Assembly (NCBI GenBank): GCA_947496605.1
Contig: CANMDF010000005.1
Coordinates: forward strand, 1 to 64,000
Source: an uncultured Paracoccaceae bacterium
GTDB lineage: Bacteria > Pseudomonadota > Alphaproteobacteria > Rhodobacterales > Rhodobacteraceae
Length of the DNA stretch: 64,000 nucleotides
Reading direction: 5' to 3'
This document shows, in pieces, positions 4,241 through 36,440 of the stretch. Position 1 is the stretch's first letter. Each line of letters begins with the position of its first letter. Below the pieces are notes generated by a model. That model saw only the letters and a list, made by a program, of their open reading frames with translations, was not told where the DNA came from and did not search any database. The position numbers and the translations under genes were made by a program.

Positions 4241-4303
4241 ATTCATCTTGCCAAAAATATCCTCGGGGGAGTGCCCGAAGGGCGCGGGGGCAGAAAGCCC
4301 CGG
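4241..4303. repeat. Dispersed intergenic repeat, copy A
   Basis: A block containing CCAAAAATATCCTCGGGGGA followed by a GCCCGAAGGGC hairpin and GGGGGC...GCCCC recurs at 25608-25670 with a few substitutions. From memory, sequences of this kind are common between genes in Rhodobacterales and often behave as transcription-end hairpins. Here it follows ietS, which fits a terminator role, although there is no long T-run. Confidence 0.6.
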
Positions 4304-4650: not shown

Positions 4651-4944
4651 GCACTACCACGGGTACGCCAAACCCGCGATGCGTCACCTCCATCTTTCCA
4701 GAAACAAGGAGAGCAAAACCCAAGGCTCCTACACGCCGGTCTCTGCCCAAGTTCGACATCGGCAAGAAGAGACATCGGTGATCCCGCAGGTGGCGCGGGA
4801 TCGAGGATGATGGGGACGTCGCGCCTTCCGCTCCGCTCTAGGCACGACGACGACTTTTCCATTGGTGTTGTCCGCCCAACAGACCTGGCCTGCCCAGTAA
4901 ATCGGCAAGCGCCCGACTAAAGCCGGTCGTCTCATGGCAGGGCC

Positions 4945-5146
4945 GTGTCCTCGGCTGCGCCTGCGGGCCGCACCACCCCTGCCCCACGACCAATTGACAG
5001 TTCATTCCAGCCCCGTGGGTCGGGCTACGCCCTCTCCCACTCTGTTCCGTCCGGAAACATGCGTTTCCGGTCAGATCAGATTGGCCAAGGCGCATCCCAT
5101 CGGCGGAAAGAGGTCAAAAGACCCGACCGCATCACCACAAGGAGGC
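4945..5146 (+). repeat. Type-2 leader repeat, copy A
   Basis: About 200 bases are shared, imperfectly, with 22756-22946. Common blocks include GTGTCCTCGGCT.CGCCTGC, CGTGGGTCGGGCT.CGCCCT and CCCATCGGCGGA. Inside is a perfect 8-bp hairpin at 5051-5070 (CCGGAAAC-ATGC-GTTTCCGG). The copy at 22858-22877 has the same shape but a different sequence. Each copy ends a few bases before a ribosome site and a plasmid gene. The stretch 4651-4944 before it shows no recognisable gene. Confidence 0.7.
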
Positions 5147-5151
5147 CAGAC

Positions 5152-5538
5152 ATGGCTATGGACGTGAACGACCGACACGCGGTTATTGCAGAACAGAACG
5201 ATTTGGTTCGGGCCGCACTCGCGGACCCCAAGGCGTTTAAGCAAGTCAATGAACAAGGAATCGCATTCAAGCTGGTTTGGACACCGGGGATCAATGAGGC
5301 GTTCCTCCTGACGGGCAAGATCAAGCACTTGGCCAAGGCTATCGCCGCATTCGATGCATTCGAGGCTGATGACGATCCCTATCAAGAACGGGACTTTGCA
5401 GCGCTCGAAGTCGAAGGCACCAAAGTCTATTTCAAGTTCGACTACTACAATCTGACGATGGACGGAGGGTCAGAAGACCCCGCTGATCCCGCGCAAACCG
5501 TGCGCGTTCTCACGGTCATGTTGCCCTCTGAATACTGA
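5152..5538 (+). CDS. DUF3768 family protein
   Basis: This is a 128-residue protein. The ATG at 5152 is chosen because AAGGAGG sits 6-7 bases upstream, and the longer ORF-track start runs through the leader repeat. The sequence (FKLVWTPGINE, ..LTGKIKHL.., KFDYYNL, DP..T.RVLTVMLPSEY) matches my memory of DUF3768, a family carried by alphaproteobacterial plasmids and integrative elements. It has no membrane segment. The function is unknown; it usually travels with ParB-like, DUF736 and ArdC genes, as here. Confidence 0.8.
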   Translation: MAMDVNDRHAVIAEQNDLVRAALADPKAFKQVNEQGIAFKLVWTPGINEAFLLTGKIKHLAKAIAAFDAFEADDDPYQERDFAALEVEGTKVYFKFDYYNLTMDGGSEDPADPAQTVRVLTVMLPSEY

Positions 5539-15796: not shown

Positions 15797-16852
15797 TTAC
15801 GGTTTGCCGCGCTTTTCAAACCAGCTTTGGCAGAACTTGATGAAATGCCTCTCTGGGTGCTTGGGTTCAATTTCTTCCTTGCCGCACCATGCGCGCCATT
15901 CTTGCTCGATCATGCGCACATCCCATCCGGGGGCAGCGGTTCGGGCATCATGGTAAGCCTCGGGATCGAGCCTGCCCTCATAGACCTCGACGACTGGCAT
16001 TGGCACAGTGCCTTTGCTGCGGAAGACAACAATGTTGCCCTCCAAGGACGGGTCGTAGTCTGGAAAGTGATCATGCTGGTCACTGTCTGCGATGATGTTG
16101 CCGATCAGACGCTTGAACTCTTTTGGCGAAGAATGTGAACCGCATTTCAAACGCAGCTTCTCAAGCCCGATGCGCCATTCTGAAGACTTGCCGCAATGTT
16201 TGCGTGCTATCTCATACATCCGTCGCTCAAGCGGCTTTTTCAAGCGGAAGTAATCGCGGCTGATCGTCAGGACTTCCTTGGCTTGGATCGCGTTAAACAC
16301 CCAGTCCGACAGGGTAACCTGCACTTCCTGAAGCACACCGTCATTGTCTCGGCGGATCGTCTTGGCGCTTTCAACAAGGCCAAAGACCTGCCACTGGCGT
16401 TCCTCACCTGTGTGTATGTTTGTTTTGATCGATGTCCCGCGTAGGCGTTCCAGTGCATCTTCGGCACGATTATAGGCACTGCCGCCTGCGGGCTTACCAG
16501 TTGCAACGATGTAGTCGCTGATCTTGAAGCTCACCGTCTTTGAGATGTCTTTTTTCTCGTTCAGGGCTGCAATCAGCTGAGAGATGCAAAAGATCAGAAT
16601 GTCGCGGTCGAAGACCGTCGCCATGCCCTTCGCAGATGGTGAGATTTCGATGTAGTTGTCGCCGTTCTCGTATCGCCGTGTTTGATGGTCTGGCTTCTTT
16701 GAGATTGAGAAAACAGGATGCTCCATCCCGGCCATGTCACTCTTGGGAGCGGCATCAAAGATGTCGCAGATAAACAGATCCGGTTGTTGAAACCGATCTG
16801 GCAGAAGCGGGTTCGCTAGTCGCTTCACTGGCTTATCACCCACCATTGTCAT
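15797..16852 (-). CDS. repA: Plasmid replication initiator RepA (RPA type)
   Basis: This 351-residue initiator matches the RPA-domain family (replication initiator protein A) of alphaproteobacterial plasmids. Recognisable segments are GDNYIEISPSAKGMATVFDRDILIFCISQL, the winged-helix-like KKPLERRMYEIARKHCG, and the C-terminal RHFIKFCQSWFEKRG. It binds iterons and opens the origin. Nine iteron copies lie at its upstream edge, and the first overlaps codons 4-9 of the gene itself (VGDKPV), suggesting autoregulation. Its size is normal for the family. No incompatibility group can be assigned from sequence alone. Confidence 0.9.
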   Translation of the reverse strand: MTMVGDKPVKRLANPLLPDRFQQPDLFICDIFDAAPKSDMAGMEHPVFSISKKPDHQTRRYENGDNYIEISPSAKGMATVFDRDILIFCISQLIAALNEKKDISKTVSFKISDYIVATGKPAGGSAYNRAEDALERLRGTSIKTNIHTGEERQWQVFGLVESAKTIRRDNDGVLQEVQVTLSDWVFNAIQAKEVLTISRDYFRLKKPLERRMYEIARKHCGKSSEWRIGLEKLRLKCGSHSSPKEFKRLIGNIIADSDQHDHFPDYDPSLEGNIVVFRSKGTVPMPVVEVYEGRLDPEAYHDARTAAPGWDVRMIEQEWRAWCGKEEIEPKHPERHFIKFCQSWFEKRGKP

Positions 16853-17085
16853 GTTACTGGCCTATTACCCACCGATTCTCTTCCTTACTGGCTTATCACA
16901 CACTACTGGCTTATCACACACCAAGTCAATCCTTTGGCTTATCACCCACCTTTTGGTCAAGTTTTGCTGGCTTATCACCCACTCGAATTATGAGTGACTC
17001 AAGAAACTCAATAAATTCAGCACACTGGCTTGCGACACACCAATGGGTGGCTTATTGCACACCGCTTTCTGGCTTATCACCCACC
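16827..17085. repeat. oriV: Iteron array, replication origin
   Basis: Nine 18-base copies related to ACTGGCTTATCACCCACC start at 16827, 16856, 16887, 16905, 16933, 16966, 17024, 17046 and 17068, all in the same orientation. Copies 3 and 4 abut; the others are spaced irregularly. Copies 7 and 8 are the most degenerate. The core is TGGCTTATCACCCACC. Same-direction repeats next to repA are the classical iteron origin layout. Confidence 0.92.
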
Positions 17086-19400: not shown

Positions 19401-19506
19401 CTTCAGCAAGCAGAAAAACGGTTTCCGGAGGACCCTCCGTTTTTCAGCCTGCACACGTCCCGCGCACCCTTCCTGCTTATCCCCATCGAAACAAGGAGAT
19501 AGACCA
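19401..19506 (+). promoter_or_regulatory. Type-1 structured leader, copy 2
   Basis: CTTCAGCAAGCAGAAAAACG opens a hairpin whose 3' arm is CCGTTTTTCAGCCTGC. Inside it CGGAGG-AC-CCTCCG forms a second perfect hairpin. CATCGAAACAAGGAGA then precedes the DUF736 ATG. This is the most regular of the copies (others at 4545-4650, 22181-22295, and a variant at 28222-28271). Confidence 0.68.
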
Positions 19507-22030: not shown

Positions 22031-22180
22031 CGATCGCGCGAGCTGTCATGTCTTTGCCGTTTTGAAAAAACTGACAGGAAGTTCCGGTGTGGATGATTTG
22101 GTCGTCGCCGTTTCGAGCCGCCTTGTTTCTTGTCGATGAATGGGTTGCAGATCTCGGCCGATCACGTTCCCTGCGCTGCG

Positions 22181-22295
22181 CTTCGGCAAGCAGAAATACG
22201 GTTTCCACCCAAGGGCGGACCCTCCGCATTTCCGCCTGCGTGATCCTCCTTAACCGATCCGCTGAGTAACCCTCATCGAAACAAGGAGATCGAAA
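22181..22295 (+). promoter_or_regulatory. Type-1 structured leader, copy 3
   Basis: CTTCGGCAAGCAGAAATACG, the 3' arm CCGCATTTCCGCCTGC and the distal CATCGAAACAAGGAGA match the copies at 4545-4650 and 19401-19506. The inner hairpin is GCGGA-CCC-TCCGC, different in sequence but alike in form to the other copies. Confidence 0.66.
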
Positions 22296-22511
22296 ATGTC
22301 TAACAAAATGTTCACCCTCACTGTTCCCGTCACGTTCAAAAAAGATGGCAAAGACCAAACCAGCTTCCGCCGCGTCGGCGCCGTCTTCGAAAACACCCGC
22401 GACAACGGCGAGCCGTTCCTCTCCATCAAGCTCGACTTCCCAGTAGCGGTCACTGAGCTGGTCGCCTTCCCACCAAAAGCAGATGGCGATGATGGCGACG
22501 TCACAGAATAA
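22296..22511 (+). CDS. Small conserved plasmid protein (71 aa), paralogue of 4344-4544
   Basis: The start is fixed by AAGGAG 8 bases upstream. The protein MSNKMFTLTVPVTFKKDGKDQ... shares most of its length with the 66-residue product at 4344 (FRRVGAVFENT, LKLDFPVAVTELVAFPP) and ends in an acidic tail. Two diverged copies in one window, both with the same leader, suggest duplication followed by parallel regulation. It is likely cytosolic. The function is unknown. A strong terminator follows. Confidence 0.82.
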   Translation: MSNKMFTLTVPVTFKKDGKDQTSFRRVGAVFENTRDNGEPFLSIKLDFPVAVTELVAFPPKADGDDGDVTE

Positions 22512-22554: not shown

Positions 22555-22755
22555 CTTGTTCCAAGAATGGCTGCGTCAAGAGAGCAATGAGAAAGGCCTC
22601 CTCAGGGGCCTTTCACGATTGAGAGAAGGTCGGGCCGGCTTCCGCTTTGCTCTCGCCCGCCCGGCACTATCCAGTTTCCATATCCGCCCAACATCCCGTC
22701 CGTGGCCGGTCAAGGGGCAAGCGCCGCGACAAGCGCGTCGGCTTTGGCGTCTCCC

Positions 22756-22946
22756 GTGTCCTCGGCTACGCCTGCGGGCCGCGCCAGAGACGCTTGCGCC
22801 CCCGTGACAGTCCCCGTTCAGGCCGTGGGTCGGGCTTCGCCCTCACCACTTGTTCCGCCGAATACATACGTATTCGGACGAAAAAAGAGCCGAGGCGTAG
22901 CCCATCGGCGGAGGGACAGCTTTGTCCCCTGCCCCACCACAACGGA
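22756..22946 (+). repeat. Type-2 leader repeat, copy B
   Basis: It is the counterpart of 4945-5146 and precedes a different gene. The internal hairpin at 22858-22877 is CCGAATAC-ATAC-GTATTCGG. Against copy A's CCGGAAAC-ATGC-GTTTCCGG, two base pairs have changed on both sides of the stem, so the pairing is kept. That favours a functional structure over simple duplication. Confidence 0.72.
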
Positions 22947-22957
22947 AAGGCTGAACG

Positions 22958-23365
22958 ATGCCCCTACCCAAGCTCGTACACACCAAACGACTGACCGAAA
23001 CCAATATCCGCGAACTCAGTGTCTATTATGACAAGGGCGGAATGAACTATTGGGACTATTCCCAAAAACCCAAAGGCATCTACTTCTCCACAGGCCTTTA
23101 CGAACAGGTGCCGGGGTCTGGCATCAAATCTTGGAAAACCGGGCAACCGGGCGATGGGTACATCCTCGTGACGCCCTTGGAGCGCTACAGCAAAAAGGCA
23201 CTTCGCCTTGTGCATGAACGTGTCACCGAACATGCGGAGCAAATCCACGCCATGTTTGATCACGGCGGCGACGTTGAAAACCTCAAACGCCTCTTGCGCG
23301 GCGAACCTTTCACACCCGTTGAAATCGACGATGCAGACACCACCGTTCAGAGAGCGGAGGCGTAA
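22958..23365 (+). CDS. Hypothetical plasmid protein (135 aa)
   Basis: This soluble protein has no recognised domain. Its N-terminal half is aromatic and probably beta-rich (SVYYDKGGMNYWDYSQKPKGIYFSTGLYEQVP), and the C-terminal half is helical (ALRLVHERVTEHAEQIHAMFDHGG). GGAAAGG lies 10 bases before the ATG. It is the first gene of a tight rightward operon with the next two, behind the type-2 leader. It resembles other uncharacterised alphaproteobacterial plasmid proteins, but no function can be given. Confidence 0.72.
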   Translation: MPLPKLVHTKRLTETNIRELSVYYDKGGMNYWDYSQKPKGIYFSTGLYEQVPGSGIKSWKTGQPGDGYILVTPLERYSKKALRLVHERVTEHAEQIHAMFDHGGDVENLKRLLRGEPFTPVEIDDADTTVQRAEA

Positions 23366-25425: not shown

Positions 25426-26274
25426 CATCGGGGGCGTTGCTTTATGCTGCGTCCCCTGCCCTCTTTGGTAGTCTGTCCTGGCTCCGGCACTTCGGCCAAA
25501 CCCAGGACAGACGTTGCGCTGTTCGCGCGGAAGTTTGGCCAGACGGTAGCTTGCCTGGGCCTTCGCATCGAGGAGTCCGCCTCATGACGATCAAGATCGC
25601 ATCCCTCATTCATCTTGCCAAAAATATCCTCGGGGGAACGCCCGTAGGGCGTGGGGGCCGACAGCCCCCTGCTACCTATACGGCCCGCGGTACGGTTCAC
25701 CGACAAGCTGGATGTGTGGGCATCCCAAAACGAAACTGGTCGCTGCATGAAGTGAGCGAAAGTAGATGCAGTGTGCTTTGTTCGTCGACCAAAGTGTATG
25801 CGGCCTGCTGGCATAGTTTCCCGTGCCGACATGACGTTGCAGCCACTGTCGGGTCAGCTCGTTTGTGGCGGGATCAGCGCGCACACTGATACGAACCGGG
25901 AATTCCCGGTCCATGATATCGTAACGATGTGGTGACTTACTACCCATGACAAAGAACATAAGCAGAACATAGCAGGCTGATCCAGAGGGTGAGGCCCTCT
26001 GCGATTAGGAATTTCCTGGTCCCTTGGGGTTCGGACAAGCCGAACGCCACTACGGGACGTTTGCGGCATGGATGCCGCCGACAGCAAGCAAAATAGACAT
26101 TCCCGTGTTGGCGGTTACTCCGCCTGCCCGCGCCAGTCATGTCGATTTAGCTCGCCGTCTCCCAATCCTTTCTTTCATCGCATTCGAGGTTTCAGGATCA
26201 GGCGCATTCGCGCTGTCCCTCAACCCCGACCCATTGGGTGGCAGACCCAAGCGACACCACAAAGGAGACCCGTC
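25426..26274. other. Long gene-free stretch containing repeat copy B
   Basis: About 850 bases without a convincing gene. The track frames here have shadow-like composition. Positions 25608-25670 carry copy B of the dispersed CCAAAAATATCCTCGGGGGA repeat found at 4241-4303. The last ~100 bases before ardC contain CACCACAAAGGAG, resembling the ends of the type-2 leaders, but the rest of that leader is missing. Confidence 0.5.
25608..25670. repeat. Dispersed intergenic repeat, copy B
   Basis: Matches 4241-4303: ATTCATCTTGCCAAAAATAT, then CCTCGGGGGA, a GCCC..AGGGC hairpin and GGGGGC...GCCCCC. It lies downstream of the DUF4942 gene, as copy A lies downstream of ietS. Confidence 0.62.
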
Positions 26275-27174
26275 ATGGCAAAATTTGATGTCTATGAGGA
26301 AGTAACAAATCAGATCATCGCAGCGCTAGAACAAGGCGTGAAACCGTGGGAATGCCCGTGGCAGAGAAACGCGGCAGCCCTTCCATTGCGTGTCACAGGA
26401 GAAAGCTATCGGGGGATCAATCATATTCTTCTGAACCTCAAGGCATGGGCGCAAGGGTATCGGAATCCAGTGTGGATGACGTTCAAACAAGCAAAGGGTT
26501 TGGGCGGGATGGTACGCAAAGGCGAGAAGTCATCGCTTGTCGTGAAGTATGGCACGTTCGAAGCAAAGGACGAAGCGCCGGAAGGTGAGACCGACGCCAA
26601 GATGCGGGGATATCTGAAAGCCTATCGCGTGTTCAACGTGCAGCAAATTGACGGGCTAGAGGAGCAGTTTCCGACGCCTGATGAGGCCAAGCCTTTGGCA
26701 ACGCGGCCTATCGAACAGCTTTCGCACATCGCGGCGGACGTGATCGAGAAAATGGGTGTGGGCTACGCGGAAGGCGGGGACCGCGCGTGCTATGTCCCGT
26801 CTTTGGACAAGGTTCACATGCCTGAGTTGTCGAAATTCAAGGGCGCGGAGTTGTTCTATTCAACCCTGTTTCACGAGTTGTCCCATGCGACTGGCCACAA
26901 GCGCCGATGCGACCGGACGAAGGAAAAAGCCGGGTCGAAGTTTGGGAACGCTGTCTATGCGATGGAAGAGCTTGTGGCTGAGATATCGGCAGCAATGATG
27001 GGGGCGCAGCTTGGCTTTCAACCCGCTCACATTGAAGACAGCGCGTCCTATGTTCAGTCATGGCTGACGGTCTTGCGGGATGACAAGCGCGCCATTGTCA
27101 AAGCGGCAGCAGCGGCACAGCGCTCCGCCGATTATCTCATGTCGAAATCAGGAGAGGTTGTAGAGGCCGCGTAG
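26275..27174 (+). CDS. ardC: ArdC family antirestriction protein
   Basis: The 299-residue protein starts at ATG 26275 (AAAGGAG, 8 bases upstream), and the longer track start is rejected. The N-terminal ssDNA-binding ArdC domain is clear (YEEVTNQIIAALEQGVKPWECPW, ..SYRGINHILL, NPVWMTFKQAKGLGG.VRKGEK). The C-terminal metalloprotease-like domain has FHELSHATGH and the later Glu in MEELVAEISA. ArdC protects entering plasmid DNA against type I restriction. Its length is normal. It sits with other leading-region-type genes and is probably expressed early after transfer. Confidence 0.93.
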   Translation: MAKFDVYEEVTNQIIAALEQGVKPWECPWQRNAAALPLRVTGESYRGINHILLNLKAWAQGYRNPVWMTFKQAKGLGGMVRKGEKSSLVVKYGTFEAKDEAPEGETDAKMRGYLKAYRVFNVQQIDGLEEQFPTPDEAKPLATRPIEQLSHIAADVIEKMGVGYAEGGDRACYVPSLDKVHMPELSKFKGAELFYSTLFHELSHATGHKRRCDRTKEKAGSKFGNAVYAMEELVAEISAAMMGAQLGFQPAHIEDSASYVQSWLTVLRDDKRAIVKAAAAAQRSADYLMSKSGEVVEAA

Positions 27175-28119: not shown

Positions 28120-28167
28120 CTGCTTTGTCCAGCCGAATGGCCCATGCCATTCGGCTGGACAAAGCAG
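28120..28167. repeat. Perfect 22-bp inverted repeat
   Basis: The left arm 28120-28141 (CTGCTTTGTCC...GAATGGC) and right arm 28146-28167 are exact reverse complements around a CCAT loop. No T-run flanks it. It sits in the leader of the small genes at 27.7-28.1 kb. The unusual length and perfection suggest a selected structure, such as a cruciform, a single-strand initiation site or an RNA stem. Confidence 0.8.
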
Positions 28168-28454: not shown

Positions 28455-29159
28455 CTAGGTGTATTTCTTAGTCAGCTCAGCGATCACGTCATCCAGCATT
28501 TGCCAAAAGAGCGTTTCGAACTGTCCGCGTACCATGGCGGGATCGGAGCGCACTCGTAGGGGGTCATGTTCATCGCGCATGGCATCTAGGATTGCGCCGT
28601 CGAGGCGTTTTGATGTGTGATATCCGTCTTGCATCGGAAGTCGGTCTGCGTCGGGTTTGGGGACAAACGTTGGTGAAAGAACGAACTTCTCCGTGGCACG
28701 TCGCCCAGCAAGCATCACAATATCTCGCTGCTGCAGCCCCTTTTCAATCAACGGCTGCATGGCCTGAGCTTGGTCGATCTTAACAGCGGCATCTAGAGTG
28801 ATTTGCCTGTCACCGCGTGGCAGATTGGATGCGTTTGGCTCCTCTGCCGGTTCTTGTTTCGGTCTCGCTGCTATCGGTTTTGCTGCAATCGTCTTTGCTT
28901 TTGGTGCTTTAGGCTTGGTGACAGGTTTCTTTGGCTTCGATGCTGAAGTCTTGGTTTCTGCTGCAGTTGCCTTTGGCTCAACAACGCCAGCTACTTCTTT
29001 GGGGTTTGTCGCGTCTTGGCTGGGACTTGTCGATTGTTCGTTAACGCCGGGAATTTTGACGTCTGGCGGCATGTCACTTTCTACCGCGCGGAAGCGTTCG
29101 AATGTGTGTGAATAGTTTGGATCGGCACCGGTAATCTTCGGTTTCTTGCGGCGTACCAT
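28455..29159 (-). CDS. Putative partition/transfer accessory protein (VirC2-like position)
   Basis: This 234-residue protein starts one base into the end of the ParA gene, so they form one operon. Residues ~40-115 are a low-complexity Ala/Lys/Pro linker (KPKKPVTKPKAPKAK). The C-terminal ~110 residues are folded (RQITLDAAVKIDQAQAMQPLIEKGLQQRDIVMLAGRRATEKF), recalling ribbon-helix-helix-type DNA-binding partners. Together with the VirC1-like ATPase it resembles a VirC1-VirC2 or ParA-ParB pair that would bind the heptad repeats upstream. The family assignment is inference. Confidence 0.6.
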   Translation of the reverse strand: MVRRKKPKITGADPNYSHTFERFRAVESDMPPDVKIPGVNEQSTSPSQDATNPKEVAGVVEPKATAAETKTSASKPKKPVTKPKAPKAKTIAAKPIAARPKQEPAEEPNASNLPRGDRQITLDAAVKIDQAQAMQPLIEKGLQQRDIVMLAGRRATEKFVLSPTFVPKPDADRLPMQDGYHTSKRLDGAILDAMRDEHDPLRVRSDPAMVRGQFETLFWQMLDDVIAELTKKYT

Positions 29160-29872
29160 TATTCATCCCCCAAGATTTCTGAGAGAATGTCTTGGGCCTC
29201 TTCTACGGCTTCGTCAAAGTGCTTGGCGTGTGTTCGAAGAAGTGCATATCTTGATGTGCGTCTTTTTTCGGCGATGTCATGGAGGAAGCCATCTGCGTCG
29301 GCATCCATGTGCTGGTTGCGGTGCATGAAGTAGTTTTCCATGATGGGGAATAGACGTAGAGCTTCGTCCTCTATCTTCTTTTGGGCCATAGTGGGTTTGT
29401 TCGGCACGTCGGCGAAGATGATACGTAAGCTAGGCAGTGCTGTCGGATCGTCAGTGCGATCACGAAGCCCAACATACCAATTGAACGTGTCTTTCGTGAT
29501 CGAGAGGTCTTTCTCTGAGAGCTTCATAGGCACGACGAGGAAATCGCTACTTGCTGCCAGATCATCTGCCCAGGCACCGGCTGCGCCTTGTGTGTCGACG
29601 AAAACTATGTCGGTTTCGCCAGATTGCCAGGCTTCTTCAATCACCTTTTCGAGGTCACTTGAAAATTCAAGTTGCTGTACTCTTACCAATGGGTCATCGA
29701 TCTCGACCCGGTGAAACCACCGATACAATGCTTGCTGTGGGTCGGCATCGAGAACGAGACAGCGTTTGCCGTCTTTGACAGCAGCGCTGGTGATTGCCTG
29801 CATTAGCGTTGTTTTTCCTGCGCCGCCTTTTCGCGTCATCACTGTGACGACTTTCATATCATCATTCTGCAT
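29159..29872 (-). CDS. ParA/MinD-type ATPase, VirC1-like
   Basis: The 237-residue protein has the deviant Walker A RKGGAGKTTL, then VLDADPQQALYRW and DIVFVDTQGAAG (Walker B region), the hallmark of small ParA-family ATPases. It lacks the N-terminal DNA-binding domain of type Ia ParA. With its partner gene and the repeat array just upstream it could drive plasmid partition. By position beside mobC, relaxase and virD4 it could instead be VirC1-like and recruit the relaxosome to the secretion channel. Both roles are plausible. Starts at 29872 or 29857 are possible. Confidence 0.82.
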   Translation of the reverse strand: MQNDDMKVVTVMTRKGGAGKTTLMQAITSAAVKDGKRCLVLDADPQQALYRWFHRVEIDDPLVRVQQLEFSSDLEKVIEEAWQSGETDIVFVDTQGAAGAWADDLAASSDFLVVPMKLSEKDLSITKDTFNWYVGLRDRTDDPTALPSLRIIFADVPNKPTMAQKKIEDEALRLFPIMENYFMHRNQHMDADADGFLHDIAEKRRTSRYALLRTHAKHFDEAVEEAQDILSEILGDE

Positions 29873-29882
29873 TCTTCTGCTC

Positions 29883-30150
29883 TCTCGTGTGTTGCGTGTC
29901 GCTTTTCGCGTGTCGCTTTGATTTTGTTATTGTTCGCGTTCTGCTTGTCACATGACGCGTGTCGCGTGTCAATTATCGCTGGCCGCCTGTCGCGTGTCCT
30001 TTGTCCATGATGCGTGTTGCGTGTCGCGTGATAGAATATGCGTATTGCGTGACGCGTGCTCAGAACAGCGTGTCGCGTGGAAGGGGCTACTTCTCGCGTA
30101 TCAATGTTCGCTTGTTGCGTGACGGAGACCGCGTGTCGCGTGTTGAATGT
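29883..30150. repeat. Degenerate GCGTGTC heptad array, candidate centromere
   Basis: More than a dozen copies of GCGTGTC and close variants (GCGTGTT, GCGTGAC, GCGTGAT) occur in ~270 bases, often as tandem pairs such as GCGTGTCGCGTGTC, separated by short AT-rich spacers. The array lies directly upstream of the ParA operon. Heptad arrays before small ParA genes typically bind a ribbon-helix-helix partner and serve as both centromere and operator. The minus-strand 115-residue frame through it (many TRHA repeats) is an artefact. Confidence 0.72.
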
Positions 30151-30185
30151 CGAGTGGGGCTCAGAGGTGTATTTATCATCCGATA

Positions 30186-30462: not shown

Positions 30463-30507
30463 TTCGGTATGTATGAGGATGGCAGGAAATAGGGGTTCTT
30501 TGTTCGT

Positions 30508-31080
30508 ATGCCTAAAGGACGAATTCTAACACCAAACGAGCGCCTGGTGATAGTGCGTGAGGCGTCGAAAGGTGCTGACGTGAAAGGGCTTGCCCTGCGA
30601 TTTGGGGTCACGCGGCGAACGATCCACTATACAATCAAGCGCGAAAAAGATCGGCGTCGGGACACTGGGATAAGAACTGCCGCCGCAAGCGTAACGGTGA
30701 CACCAGACGAGATGGACGCGTTTGATCTGGCGATTTCAAAACATGGATTTGGCAGTCGGGCAGACGCATTGCGGGCGCTGATGCAGGCGACGAATGGCAT
30801 TTTCGTCCCCGATGATCACCTGTCTGGCGAGCTGGCCGGGTTCCGTGCCGCCCTAAATCGTGTTGGTAACAACATCACCCAGATTGCGAGGCGGATGAAC
30901 GAAGCAAAAAAGCGCGGTATGCCTGCGCCGTGGTCGGACAGGCAGTACGAGGAAATCAGGGCGCTCGCAGGTCTGATTTTGGAGATGGGGGATCAAGCTG
31001 ATTTACTCATCAAACGGCGCAAGGATGCCATGACGGTGACGGTGAACGAGGTGTTGAGGGAGTTTGCTCTTGGCACGTAA
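30508..31080 (+). CDS. mobC: Relaxosome accessory protein MobC/VirD1-like
   Basis: This 190-residue protein has an N-terminal helix-turn-helix (ERLVIVREASKGADVKGLALRFGVTRRTIHYTIK). It is followed by the MobC-type region (SVTVTPDEMDAFDLAISKHGFGSRADALRALM..., LAGFRAALNRVGNNITQIARRMNEA), the block that helps the relaxase melt oriT. The C-terminus overlaps the relaxase start. The extra HTH is unusual for MobC and makes it a candidate for binding its own promoter dyad, although no direct evidence shows this. Confidence 0.83.
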   Translation: MPKGRILTPNERLVIVREASKGADVKGLALRFGVTRRTIHYTIKREKDRRRDTGIRTAAASVTVTPDEMDAFDLAISKHGFGSRADALRALMQATNGIFVPDDHLSGELAGFRAALNRVGNNITQIARRMNEAKKRGMPAPWSDRQYEEIRALAGLILEMGDQADLLIKRRKDAMTVTVNEVLREFALGT

Positions 31081-34000
31081 TAACGCCGTCGAGGCTGTCA
31101 CAGGTGAGGTGTTCCGGGAGGGATGGGACCGTGTTCGCGGTTCTATGCAAGGTCTCAACAGTAAGAAGCACGGACAACTCTATCGCGCTGCACGCGGTCA
31201 TCGTTCGGCGGTGTTCAAGGCCATCAAGAACGGCGGGACGCACACGAAGGGCCAGCTCAGCAATCAGCTTTCCTATATCACGCGCGATCATAAGCTGGCG
31301 CATTTCGTGGATAGTCGTGGCACATTCGATGGCAAGACGAAGTTCGATGACAAAGTCATCAAGAAGATCACGGATCGATTTGCCGAGCGTTGGGACAGTG
31401 GTTTCCGCCCGAAGATGGGCAACACCACGCACATGCTCATGTCGTTTCCGAAAGGTACGAAGTCGGAGGACGTGAGAGACATCGCGTCTGACGTATGTGA
31501 GCGGTTCTTTGAAACCTATGATGGCCACTTCGATTATGTGATTGCCGTCCACAAGGATCGGGATCATCCGCACGCCCACATCGTCTTGAACAGACGGTCC
31601 CAGGAGGGTGAGTTTTTCTATCTGGGTCGTGATCATCGGTTCAATTACGACGATTTTCGCTTCGCAATGGTGGAAGAGGCCGAGAAGTACAGTGTGAAGC
31701 TGGAAGCGACGCGGCGGGTTGATCGCGGTCTTGTCCATTATCCGCCCAGGACGCGGGAAATCTACGCGGTCAAGCAAGACGCTGAAAACGGTGCGATGCG
31801 CGAACCCGAACAGAGAGAGCGGGTAGGGCGCGATCTGGCACGAACAGTGGCAGAGATTGCCAGCACGAGACTTGTCTATCACTCGCTCGCTGCGGAGGCC
31901 TCAACCGACAGCCGAGAAGAAATTTCCGAGGCCCTTCTGAAAGCGGCAGAGCTTTTGGGCAAGGGAACAACCATTCAGCATGATGGAGACATTTACATGG
32001 GAGCCGCCGAGGACTTTGACGATCTGAGAGGGCAATATGCCGAAACCGTTGAGGAAGTGCAGGCCCGCATCGCACGGCTTCCTGAAGGTGAACGGGCGGC
32101 CAATGAACGAAGGCTGAACGACATCCAAGTCGGCCTCCGTCGGATGCAGCCGCTTGGTCTGCGATCTGTGACGCTTGAGCAAAAGCCTTCAGAGGGCGGG
32201 ATTTATTCTGAGACGAATATCAACAGCGAGCTTGTTGGGCGATTGCAGGATGGGAGCACGCGAGCCCAGATTGACAACGCTTTGAGAGGGACCGGGATCA
32301 GGGCTGATACCGTCGTCAACCGCATCGCGACCGGCGCACCAAACGCGGCGCTAGAGCGTCAATGGGTTGCCGATGATCTTGCAAAGGTTGCCGAGGCGCA
32401 GGGTTTGAACCTTGAACGCAAGGACGACTTAGAGGCTGCGCGTGAGCGCTTGAACCAAGTGCATGTAGAGTTAGGCACCGCACTCGAGCGGGCAGAGGTG
32501 CTGCGCGATGACGGCGTGATTGAAGAAACTCGCGAAATCCGCTTCCACTTTGATCAAGAGCGATTGGACGACACGACTCGGGCGGTGCGCCAAGAATTGA
32601 GAGGGCAGGGGGTCAATGAAGCGCAGCTTGACGCCCGTGCCATTGAGATTGAAAACCGGGCGTTTGACCGGGTTAAGGCAGAGCAGCGGGACTATCTCGC
32701 AACGCGGCCTGAAATTCTTTCTGATCCAGGGGCTGTCTACCGCACAGACGAAGAGGGTAGGGGGCGGATCACAGATCGGGAGCTAGCGGATCGGCTTGAT
32801 CGGGAGATAGACGTCATCCTTGACCGTTCGCCCGCCAATCAGAGCATTTCCGAGGCCGTCGCATCCGATTTCAAGGATCGCTACCCCGACATGCCCGATC
32901 ACGTTGCACGAGGCTTGGGCGATACCTACGAGACGAGCTTCCGTTTGAATAATGAGCAGGAGTTGCGCGAGGCAGAGCTTGAAGCCGCCGATGGTGAGAC
33001 TGCACGAGAAGCCGCGCTTGAAGCGAACCGGAATGACAATGGGATCGCGCAGACTGAAGCCGATGGTATCTCGTCAGCTGATAGGCGTGAGTTCGATGAA
33101 CTCGAACGTCAGTTTGCGCTCACAGATTTCAATTATCCCTATTCGGATGACCCGAACGCGCGTGATGTAGGGCGCGAACAAGCGCAACGGGCGTCAGATG
33201 CATTTCGCTCGTTTGCGGCGAGGTCGCCACTACACGCAGCTATGGCTTCGAGTGCATGGGATCGCGCAACGGATATTATGCGAGGGCCAGAGGGATATCT
33301 GAGGCAGGAGAAGCGAGAGCCAATTCTGGAACGCGCTGAAGAATGGGAGTTGATGGGAAGACCAATCACTCTGGAGGAGATGGAGCGTGCGATTGAAGAT
33401 GATCGAAATGATGACATCCAATTGGAGTGGCTGCAAAATTCGGGAATTGAACGTGCCGAGCAAGAAGGCATAGCCGCTCAAGAGAGCCGCAACATTCGCG
33501 CGATGGAGATAGACCAAACCAGTCTTGATCGTATGAGTTCGCGGGTGCGTGATGAAATCATGGCTGAAAATGCTGAAACCGAGAGTTTCGATCAACGCTA
33601 TGAGCGTGCGGAAGCCATGGCTGCGAGCGGGGCCATCGAACATACGGCTCGGGCCCGCATTCTGCAAGAGCGTGAAGAATACCTCAGTCAAAGACCGGAG
33701 CTTGCCGCAGAGCGGGTCCTTCCATACTCGGATCTTCCTTTTGGCGCGAAGATCGAGGACCGCGAGCGCGTCGATCAGATCAGTCGCGAAGTGGACCGGG
33801 TTATGGCTGATCGTGACAATCGCGGAGAGGTTTCAACAGCCGTCGCCGATGATTTCCCCGCCCGTTATCCAGACATGCCGAACCATTTGGCCCGTGGCCT
33901 TGGCCGGACTTATGAGGTCGCAAGTGAGGCGCGCGATAGGGAAGCTATTCGTGATTATGAAGAAACCCGCATCGAGAACGAAGAAATCCGGCGCGTGGTT

Positions 34001-34321
34001 GAGCATGAGAGGTCTGACGACGTGTCGCCGTCGCTGGCAACGGACGAGCAGCGTCTCAGCTATCGCGAGCAGGTCGAGAAAGAGCTTGACGATGAGCAGA
34101 TCGAGCGGTTGCGGGAAGGTGACAGCGACGCCTTGGAGAACATGTCTGACGACAGGCTAGACCGTCTCTACGCTGCGAAAGCCTATCTACAATCGGATGC
34201 AGCAACGGCGAACTCTGAAGCCTATCGCGAGGTCGTGGAAGAGATCGCCGAAGAGCAGTATGAGTTGCAACGAGACCGGCTAGTCGACTCTGAACGCGAA
34301 GGAGGGCCGGTCCATGGGTAA
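31070..34321 (+). CDS. VirD2-like relaxase with large repeat-bearing C-terminus
   Basis: The TTG at 31070 is preferred over 31064 because GAGGGAG then lies 7 bases upstream. The N-terminal ~270 residues form the relaxase: YITRD with the likely nicking Tyr, and the metal motif HKDRDHPHAHIVLNRR, closest to VirD2-type enzymes. It nicks oriT and pilots the strand to VirD4. The remaining ~800 residues are helical and highly charged. They hold a duplicated ~85-residue unit (about residues 541-625 and 870-950), each with RYPDMP.H.ARGLG.TYE. At ~1,083 residues it is much longer than Agrobacterium VirD2. It overlaps virD4 by 8 bases. Confidence 0.9.
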   Translation: MARNNAVEAVTGEVFREGWDRVRGSMQGLNSKKHGQLYRAARGHRSAVFKAIKNGGTHTKGQLSNQLSYITRDHKLAHFVDSRGTFDGKTKFDDKVIKKITDRFAERWDSGFRPKMGNTTHMLMSFPKGTKSEDVRDIASDVCERFFETYDGHFDYVIAVHKDRDHPHAHIVLNRRSQEGEFFYLGRDHRFNYDDFRFAMVEEAEKYSVKLEATRRVDRGLVHYPPRTREIYAVKQDAENGAMREPEQRERVGRDLARTVAEIASTRLVYHSLAAEASTDSREEISEALLKAAELLGKGTTIQHDGDIYMGAAEDFDDLRGQYAETVEEVQARIARLPEGERAANERRLNDIQVGLRRMQPLGLRSVTLEQKPSEGGIYSETNINSELVGRLQDGSTRAQIDNALRGTGIRADTVVNRIATGAPNAALERQWVADDLAKVAEAQGLNLERKDDLEAARERLNQVHVELGTALERAEVLRDDGVIEETREIRFHFDQERLDDTTRAVRQELRGQGVNEAQLDARAIEIENRAFDRVKAEQRDYLATRPEILSDPGAVYRTDEEGRGRITDRELADRLDREIDVILDRSPANQSISEAVASDFKDRYPDMPDHVARGLGDTYETSFRLNNEQELREAELEAADGETAREAALEANRNDNGIAQTEADGISSADRREFDELERQFALTDFNYPYSDDPNARDVGREQAQRASDAFRSFAARSPLHAAMASSAWDRATDIMRGPEGYLRQEKREPILERAEEWELMGRPITLEEMERAIEDDRNDDIQLEWLQNSGIERAEQEGIAAQESRNIRAMEIDQTSLDRMSSRVRDEIMAENAETESFDQRYERAEAMAASGAIEHTARARILQEREEYLSQRPELAAERVLPYSDLPFGAKIEDRERVDQISREVDRVMADRDNRGEVSTAVADDFPARYPDMPNHLARGLGRTYEVASEARDREAIRDYEETRIENEEIRRVVEHERSDDVSPSLATDEQRLSYREQVEKELDDEQIERLREGDSDALENMSDDRLDRLYAAKAYLQSDAATANSEAYREVVEEIAEEQYELQRDRLVDSEREGGPVHG

Positions 34322-36440
34322 GGGTCGCATTGCATTTGGCGTCCTCATTCTTACGCTGTTGGCACTCACCATCGGCTATGTCGTTTCTTCTGCTGTCTTG
34401 ACGTTCAAGGACTTAGGTTTTCAGGCCGATATCGACTTTTTCTATCTCGCGGAGAACTACTTATATCTTCGCCAGTACAGGCCTGAAGACTACCGGCTTG
34501 TGAACCTCATCATGGCTGGGATCGGCATTGCTGGTTTGATGATGAGCGTTGCCGTGTCCGGTTCGGCGCTGACCAAGTTCGGCCTCACGCATTGGCAGAA
34601 GAGCGGGGAGCTGGCGAAGAATGGGTTTTTTGGAAAGCCCGGAACAGGTTTCATTCTCGGTAAGCTGGCGAAGCCAAAACGCAAAGGCAAATATCTGGTT
34701 GCTAAGACCTTCCCGCACGCGCTCATTGTTGCGCCGACCGGTCGAGGCAAGACGACCGGTTTCGTCATACCCAATCTTCTAACGTGGGAAGGCTCTGCCG
34801 TTGTCCTGGATGTGAAGGGGGAGAACTTTGAGGCGACCGCACGACATCGTTGCAAACAGGGAGATAAGATCTTCCGCTTTGCGCCGACCGATTTTGAGGA
34901 TCGCAGAACGCATCGCTATAACCCTTTGCTTCGCATTTCCGAATTGAAGGACCCGGCGCAGCAACAGATGGAGCTGCAACTACTCGCAACACTGTTTCTG
35001 CAGAATGAGAACGACCGCGTTCAAGGTCTCTTGAAAGGTGGGATCGATCTATTCGTCGCCGCAGGTCTCTTGGCACTCGAGCGCAAGAAGCCCACGCTTG
35101 GAGAAATCTACCGCATCGCGGCATCTGGCGGGAACAAGCAGAAGGAATATATGGCGCGCGGCGTGGAGGTGGAGAACGAAGCTGCGAAGCTGATTTTCAC
35201 GCGGCTCGCCTCGACCAACAACGAAACGCTGACTTCCTATGTGTCGCTGTTAATGACTTCGGGCTTGGACCAATGGCAGAACCCGGCGATTGACGCTGCA
35301 ACACAGGAGTCAGACTTCGATTTCCGGAAAATTCGAAAGGAGCCATTCAGCGTCTACCTAATTGTTCAGCCTCTGATGGTCGAACCAATGGCGCCACTGA
35401 TCCGGCTGTTCTTTTCTGACCTTCTGGCGTCGATGCAGGACAAGGAACCAGGTCCGGACGAGCCTTGGCCGGTCATGATTATGCTCGATGAGTTCAACCG
35501 GCTTGGAAAAATGCCCATTGTGACGAAAAGCATCGAGACGCTGCGAGCGTATCGCGGGCATCTGGCAATCGTCACCCAAACGATCCCGGCGCTTGATGAA
35601 ATCTATGGGGAAAACACCCGACGCGCTTTACAAGGGAACGCTGGGGTAAAGCTCTACCTTACCCCATCGGATGAAAAGACGGTCGAAGAGCTGACTAAGG
35701 CTGTCGGAAAGACGACAAAAAAGGTTGTCACGCAGTCGCGGGCAATCGGCAAAATGCCTTTTGAGGGTCGCAGTCAGTCGGTGAGGACGGAGGAAGTCTC
35801 ATTGCTTCCGGAGGACGAAGCCAGGCGCTTGCCGCTTGATGAAATCGTTATGGTGATCGACGCGCAAATGCCTATCCGAGCAAAGCGTATCGAGTACTTC
35901 AACGATCCATTCTTCACGGGCATCCATGCTGCGCAAAAAGGGGATCTTCCTTTCCCTGAGAATGAGGTTTCCACTTCTATCGCCACAGCCGAAGAAGAAG
36001 TCGAGGAAGAGGATTTGACAGTCGAGGCCGGGGTTGAAACGCCTTCACCAGAGCCAACAGTAAGTCCACCGACTGACGCGGCGGCCCAGTTGCCTGCGGC
36101 GACGCCGACACCACCGCCAGCGCAAGGCAAGTTGCCAATTGAACCTGTTGATCGTCCAGCTCCGCCGCGCGAGTCTATTCAAATGGCTATGGCTACCAAA
36201 CAACGTGAGACACTGCGCACGTCTAAGAGAAAGAAGGCCAAGGGTGTGGTGGCAGTTGATGCGGATCAGCAGCGTCAAATCGAATTGAACCTAGCGATGC
36301 AAACCGAGTTGATCTTAGAAGTGCCGACTGATGCGGATGTAGCCGAGCTGCAAAAGGCCATGGGTGATCTGGAAGACTTCAGAGATAGCTTGCCTGAGGA
36401 GGCGGACGTTACGCGGGGGCTAACTGCGAAAGCTGTTTAA
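34314..36440 (+). CDS. virD4: Type IV coupling protein VirD4
   Basis: The 708-residue protein has two N-terminal membrane helices (IAFGVLILTLLALTIGYVVSSAV; LVNLIMAGIGIAGLMMSVAVSG), Walker A VAPTGRGKTTGF, Walker B PVMIMLDEFNRLGKM and conserved VTQTIPALDEIYG. It couples the relaxase-DNA complex to the T4SS channel at the inner membrane. The C-terminal ~180 residues form a long Pro/Ala/Glu-rich tail not present in the shortest homologues. It is third in the mobC-relaxase-virD4 operon and ends 17 bases from a convergent small gene. Confidence 0.95.
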   Translation: MGKGRIAFGVLILTLLALTIGYVVSSAVLTFKDLGFQADIDFFYLAENYLYLRQYRPEDYRLVNLIMAGIGIAGLMMSVAVSGSALTKFGLTHWQKSGELAKNGFFGKPGTGFILGKLAKPKRKGKYLVAKTFPHALIVAPTGRGKTTGFVIPNLLTWEGSAVVLDVKGENFEATARHRCKQGDKIFRFAPTDFEDRRTHRYNPLLRISELKDPAQQQMELQLLATLFLQNENDRVQGLLKGGIDLFVAAGLLALERKKPTLGEIYRIAASGGNKQKEYMARGVEVENEAAKLIFTRLASTNNETLTSYVSLLMTSGLDQWQNPAIDAATQESDFDFRKIRKEPFSVYLIVQPLMVEPMAPLIRLFFSDLLASMQDKEPGPDEPWPVMIMLDEFNRLGKMPIVTKSIETLRAYRGHLAIVTQTIPALDEIYGENTRRALQGNAGVKLYLTPSDEKTVEELTKAVGKTTKKVVTQSRAIGKMPFEGRSQSVRTEEVSLLPEDEARRLPLDEIVMVIDAQMPIRAKRIEYFNDPFFTGIHAAQKGDLPFPENEVSTSIATAEEEVEEEDLTVEAGVETPSPEPTVSPPTDAAAQLPAATPTPPPAQGKLPIEPVDRPAPPRESIQMAMATKQRETLRTSKRKKAKGVVAVDADQQRQIELNLAMQTELILEVPTDADVAELQKAMGDLEDFRDSLPEEADVTRGLTAKAV

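Follow-up and report, generated by a model that had tools for sequence, protein, structure and literature searches.

Covarying, hairpin-rich leaders of plasmid leading-region genes that may fold in the entering DNA strand

Two repeated, hairpin-rich leaders that precede genes of a conjugative plasmid or element belong to a widespread and apparently undescribed control element, and comparison with homologues supports selection on their structure. The evidence suggests that the element folds in the single DNA strand that enters a new cell during conjugation, so that the genes needed first by the plasmid can be switched on at once. In this respect it would work like the Frpo/ssi single-strand promoters of plasmid F, to which it is unrelated in sequence. 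We assign this reading a probability of about 0.62; that the minus strand is the folded one is supported statistically, whereas the promoter step is inferred from sequence and has no measurement behind it.

The window, by which we mean the whole 64,000-nucleotide stretch of DNA analysed, is the start of contig 5 (CANMDF010000005.1) of a 3.47-Mb genome (GCA_947496605.1) of an uncultured Paracoccaceae bacterium. It carries part of a conjugative plasmid or element, with genes for RepA, a VirC1-like protein, a relaxase and a coupling protein, and type IV secretion genes beyond. Leader 1 precedes a DUF3768 gene and a large ParB-like gene, whereas leader 2 precedes a gene without a Pfam match and, further on, a DUF4942 methyltransferase gene and an ArdC-type gene (Table 1).

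Anatomy and covariation of the leaders

A sequence-only reading had drawn attention to the central hairpins of the two leaders, CCGGAAAC-ATGC-GTTTCCGG and CCGAATAC-ATAC-GTATTCGG, in which two pairs have changed on both sides of the stem, and had taken this as direct evidence of selection on structure, pointing to either a cis-regulatory RNA or a structured ssDNA promoter. The observation is correct. Two changed pairs in two sequences would be weak evidence alone, and its description as direct was overstated, although it proved right. In an alignment of 17 distinct homologues, this hairpin (hairpin C) has 8 pairs changed on both sides, compared with 3.3 in shuffles, 21 double-changed cells, compared with 5.6, and a covariation score of 0.338, compared with 0.154; none of 500 shuffles reached this score, and slid registers gave at most 0.126. 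Two corrections are nevertheless required. Homology begins upstream of position 4945, at about 4871 or earlier, and the most conserved and most strongly covarying part of the leader is not the central hairpin but a capped stem (domain A) upstream of it.

Domain A is the common part. It is made up of a stem of freely varying sequence (P2, continuing into an outer stem, P1), capped by CCGTGTCCTC, a variable apical hairpin (P3) and TGCGGGCCGCACCA. P2 and P3 maintain pairing through many double changes, with 83 double-changed cells against 27 in shuffles and a covariation score of 0.443 against 0.144 on 35 sequences. The sequence of P2 in leader 2 is wholly different from that in leader 1, yet it is paired. 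In contrast, the cap hardly varies and its changes are not compensated, so it looks like a recognition motif; a simple GTG/CAC helix within it was considered, but column 16 of the alignment changes without compensation and it was therefore not modeled as paired. In type-2 leaders, which are those of the window, domain A is surrounded by hairpins P0, B, C and E and a conserved block, D. A second architecture (family ii) and a beta/gamma architecture share the cap but have other surrounding hairpins.

Block D is nearly the reverse complement of the top of hairpin B, such that the leader could switch between local hairpins and a long-range helix around hairpin C. Apparent chimeras also occur among the homologous loci: in locus L080 (2400-2900) a family-ii leader is joined to the B-C-D part of a type-2 leader, and in locus L040 (at 3233) one copy breaks off just after TTTGACAGA, suggesting recombination or insertion within leaders.

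Table 1. Positions in the window of the leaders, their parts and associated features
Position	Strand	Feature	Evidence or remark
4241-4301 and 25608-25668		61-bp direct repeat	90% identical; unexplained
4813-4852	.	Leader 1, possible upstream hairpin X (low confidence)	Counterparts of varied sequence precede other type-2 leaders (read by eye)
4871-4881	.	Leader 1, conserved TCCGCCCAACA; TCCGCC is complementary to GGCGGA of D	Conserved in type-2 leaders; long-range pair possible only
4936-4983	- (strand inferred to fold)	Leader 1, domain A: P2 arms 4936-4942/4977-4983, invariant CCGTGTCCTC 4943-4952, P3 4953-4961, TGCGGGCCGCACCA 4962-4975	Covariation; covariance model R1 match 73.8 bits
4994-4999	+	Leader 1, TTGACA in outer stem P1; imperfect 5' partner near 4897-4901	Also in P1 of beta/gamma and other copies
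5015-5040	-	Leader 1, hairpin B (GTGGG...CCCAC)	Replaced by GCAGG/CCTGC or GCGGG/CCCGC in relatives
5051-5070	-	Leader 1, hairpin C	Covariation
5087-5107	.	Leader 1, conserved block D (AAGGCGCATCCCATCGGCGGA)	Possible alternative pairing with hairpin B
5112-5123	-		Different paired sequences in relatives (by eye)
5152-5538	+	Gene behind leader 1: DUF3768	Pfam E 3e-27; leader ends at its start codon
5730-7637	+	ParB-like gene	Follows DUF3768 here and in related plasmids
15797-16852		RepA
16818-16953		Repeats of ACTGGCTTATCACCCACC at the start of and upstream of repA	Probably replication iterons
19406-19506, 22165-22296 and about 4667-4600	+, + and -	Second repeated leader type: hairpin capped by CGGTTTCC...GGACCCTCCG	Ahead of a DUF736 gene (19507) and other genes
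22747-22793	-	Leader 2, domain A: P2 22747-22753/22787-22793, invariant block 22754-22763, P3 22764-22772, second block 22773-22786	R1 match 54.1 bits
22825-22849	-	Leader 2, hairpin B
22858-22877	-	Leader 2, hairpin C	Covariation
22892-22912	.	Leader 2, conserved block D
22913-22928	-	Leader 2, hairpin E (GGGACA...TGTCCC)	By eye
22958-23365	+	Gene behind leader 2, no Pfam family	Leader ends at its start codon; its homologue in locus L033 has a different leader type with the same cap
26068-27174	+	ArdC-type (ArdcN plus zincin) gene of the same leading region	Relatives in other plasmids follow the element
28120-28167		Perfect 22-bp inverted repeat with a 4-nt loop	Between the ArdC-type gene and the VirC1-like operon
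29159-29872		VirC1-like gene
29931-30152		Iteron-like CGCGTGTCGCGTGTC repeats	Between the VirC1-like gene and the candidate nic site; possibly a relaxosome or partition site
30480-30490	-	Candidate nic core TGGCAGGAAAT; nicked strand would be minus (ATTTCCTG^CCA)	Same core and orientation upstream of mobC/virD1 in pTB1, pLM19O2 and pTAV1
31064-34321	+	Relaxase gene (lagging side)	Pfam Relaxase E 2.5e-14
34314-36440		Coupling protein

Distribution and the genes behind the element

Searches of plasmid sequences with leader 1 found 189 records and those with leader 2 found 32, many of which cover the whole leader in Rhodobacterales. A 46-bp core is 98% identical in plasmids of Pseudomonas and Enterobacteriaceae, where it precedes a DUF932 gene followed by a ParB-like gene. 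Searches with the DUF3768 protein gave only one relative in genome contigs and one in viral contigs. A covariance model of the core (R1) matches 46 of 397 genomes of the window's family and 15 of 399 drawn from the phylum, including other classes, although the weakest few matches are probably due to chance. It also matches 13 of 14 plasmid records, with up to five copies each and, in most multi-copy records, all in one orientation. Altogether, we found about 90 copies of the cap in Alpha-, Beta- and Gammaproteobacteria. No match to Rfam was obtained for the window or for leader 1, even at E<=1, and nine homologous loci gave only tRNAs; neither was any description of the element, including by its core sequence, found in the literature, although with only open-access papers searched this is weak evidence of novelty.

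The genes behind the element are those of plasmid leading regions and include DUF932, DUF3768, DUF1419, ParB-like, ArdC/zincin, DUF736 and SSB genes, together with several unknown families. The gene family of 22958 and DUF3768 both occur behind type-2 leaders and behind family-ii leaders, so leader and gene have been exchanged. Some copies, however, have no evident gene downstream. Several family-ii copies (loci L012, L014, L016, L019, L022 and L054) lie beside a tRNA gene with no evident gene between, and sequences ending in TGACGTTC(N)ACA recur at the junction, which may be the end of an integrating element.

A recurrent position ahead of unrelated leading-region genes might also be expected of a double-stranded operator, or an extruded cruciform, bound by a plasmid protein that represses these genes in the donor, as in the CUP-controlled regulon of IncN plasmids, and the invariant cap could be a binding site for such a protein. 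An operator, however, has no need of compensatory changes in stems of freely varying sequence, nor of the loop and mismatch preferences on one strand described below, and we consider this explanation very unlikely.

Which strand folds and which is transferred

A DNA palindrome does not reveal which of its strands folds, and three tests were therefore applied. First, A·C mismatches on the plus strand, which are T·G wobbles on the minus strand, number 25 in 38 clusters of domain A stems, whereas G·T mismatches number 4; position-matched shuffles predict a ratio of 1.19 (p = 5e-4). With stricter clustering (26 clusters) the counts are 16 and 4 (p = 0.04). This asymmetry could partly reflect strand-biased mutation of the transferred strand (T-strand). 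Second, the apical triloops of P3 read GNA on the minus strand in 12 of 16 distinct hairpins (62 of 66 copies), and the tetraloops read GNNA in 5 of 8, with none on the plus strand; spurious loci were removed before the counts in both of these tests. GNA loops are described as extraordinarily stable in DNA, and the same probably holds for GNNA. Four of the five GNNA loops are GNYA and only one is a GNRA loop of the type expected of RNA, so DNA fits better than RNA. Third, folding energies favor the minus strand for both leaders of the window. Leader 1 has a z score of -4.05 on minus and -2.31 on plus, and leader 2 has -3.54 on minus, or, with flanks, -2.4 on minus and -1.82 on plus. Minus is also favored for loci L037 (-6.34) and L041 (-8.62), but for one family-ii leader the minus strand folds no better than the plus (-1.12 and -1.90, respectively). 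Consensus folding of B-C-D is likewise stronger on minus (DNA, -12.9 compared with -8.6). Together, these observations make the minus strand, as DNA, the likeliest folded molecule.

The alternative offered by the sequence-only reading, a cis-regulatory RNA, would require that the leader is transcribed from an upstream promoter as a 5' UTR and that the folded plus-strand RNA controls translation, stability or processive antitermination of leading-region genes. The structure does run to the ribosome-binding site, the RNA fold of leader 1 has a z score of -2.74, and the possible long-range B-D helix carries more G·T than A·C cells on the plus strand, with a few compensatory changes, which would suit a plus-strand RNA. 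In domain A, however, G·T pairs on plus are both rarer than A·C and rarer than expected for RNA stems, and the apical loops on plus are UNC/UNNC, which are not known stable RNA loops. Added to this are the absence of an Rfam match and of any promoter-like pair in the leaders, and the lack of an intrinsic terminator behind the hairpins on the gene strand: none lies within leader 1, and the two terminator-like sites near leader 2 are upstream on plus (22528) or on minus (22903). A plus-strand RNA is thus disfavored, and in our view unlikely, but it is not excluded.

The inferred polarity of transfer is consistent with folding of the minus strand. The candidate nic core of the window lies upstream of mobC/virD1, and pTB1, pLM19O2 and pTAV1 have the same kind of core in the same orientation. 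If, as similarity suggests, these cores follow the IncP/VirD2 rule, the nicked strand is minus and the T-strand runs leftward through 29 to 4 kb, where the leaders lie. All leader genes are on plus, pointing at the nic-like site and the relaxase, so the inferred T-strand is their template. Gene order relative to the relaxase is the same in pTB1, pTAV1, pFER2, pLM19O2, pBMUL01 (MobF) and PA83 of Pseudomonas aeruginosa. The second repeated leader type of the window, which also occurs in loci L082 and L066, includes a copy near 4.6 kb that points the other way and so would not follow this rule.

Relation to single-strand promoters and possible mode of action

The best explanation of these data is that the leaders are single-stranded-DNA regulatory elements, probably promoters, of the plasmid's leading region. 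In essence, the T-strand would enter the recipient 5' end first and fold into a row of hairpins centered on the capped stem, allowing the recipient's RNA polymerase to start transcription on the single-stranded template. The downstream establishment genes (DUF3768/ParB-like, the gene at 22958 and its neighbors) would then be expressed before the complementary strand is made, and conversion to duplex would remove both the structure and the signal. Recruitment of RNA polymerase, whether directly or through a factor that reads the invariant cap, is inferred, as is the timing of expression.

The closest known systems are the Frpo/ssi single-strand promoters of plasmids F and ColIb-P9, which are likewise structured non-coding repeats ahead of several leading-region genes, with the T-strand as template. 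The leading region of F carries SSB, ParB-like, anti-restriction, PsiB and DUF932 genes, and its Frpo sequences direct, and are needed for, early expression from the entering strand (PMC9849209; PMC11541004). There is, however, no sequence similarity between the two: R1 has no match in the leading region of F, and blastn searches with four leaders gave only chance hits (best E 0.06). The present element also differs in being GC-rich and in having an invariant capped stem. Furthermore, whereas Frpo reconstitutes both -35 and -10 boxes, no -10 box was recognized here. TTGAC lies in stem P1 of type-2 and beta/gamma copies, 15 nt before hairpin B in the type-2 copies inspected, but it is not evident in family-ii copies, no -10-like hexamer is found at 16-18 nt, and a consensus scan found no standard promoter-like pair. 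Either the fold replaces the need for a -10 box or a factor reads the cap. We therefore do not claim that the element belongs to Frpo. A tentative extension of this view is that the element represents a previously undescribed class, defined by an aptamer-like invariant cap (CCGTGTCCTC-hairpin-TGCGGGCCGCACCA) on a freely varying stem and used by conjugative plasmids and ICE-type modules in three proteobacterial classes, in which recognition of the cap, rather than a rebuilt -10/-35 promoter, starts transcription on the entering strand.

Frpo was described as acting both as a promoter and in primer RNA synthesis (Masai and Arai 1997, cited in PMC9849209), which raises the possibility that the folded T-strand here recruits a primase, primosome or RNA polymerase to start complementary-strand synthesis and that its location ahead of genes is secondary. 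The presence of several copies per plasmid in the leading region, mostly in one orientation, and the evidence for minus-strand folding would be compatible with such a role. However, copies sit directly ahead of the ribosome-binding sites of many different genes, and one gene family can carry different leader types with the same cap, which points to gene expression and makes a purely priming function improbable.

Two further systems invite comparison. The EGeRS1 regions of the Gram-positive plasmid pLS20 are the nearest analogue in appearance, being repeated, GC-rich regions with many inverted repeats directly upstream of the ribosome-binding sites of ardC and other establishment genes (PMC8708921). 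In pLS20, however, the transferred strand is the non-template strand, and ssDNA promoters are thought by its authors to be unlikely there, whereas the inferred T-strand is the template here. The CUP elements of IncN plasmids appear also to be conserved upstream repeats that control several leading-region genes, under the control of ArdK (see PMC6289460 on ArdK), but they are described as ordinary repressed promoters, whereas no promoter-like pair was found in the leaders and their structure covaries.

Single-strand promoters are established for F-type and ColIb-type enterobacterial plasmids. A widespread element of unrelated sequence in Alpha-, Beta- and Gammaproteobacteria would show that the expression of genes from the entering strand is a general strategy. 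It would also provide a searchable signature for establishment and anti-defense genes, many of which are still of unknown function, and a defined nucleic acid structure with which to test for the binding of RNA polymerase or other factors.
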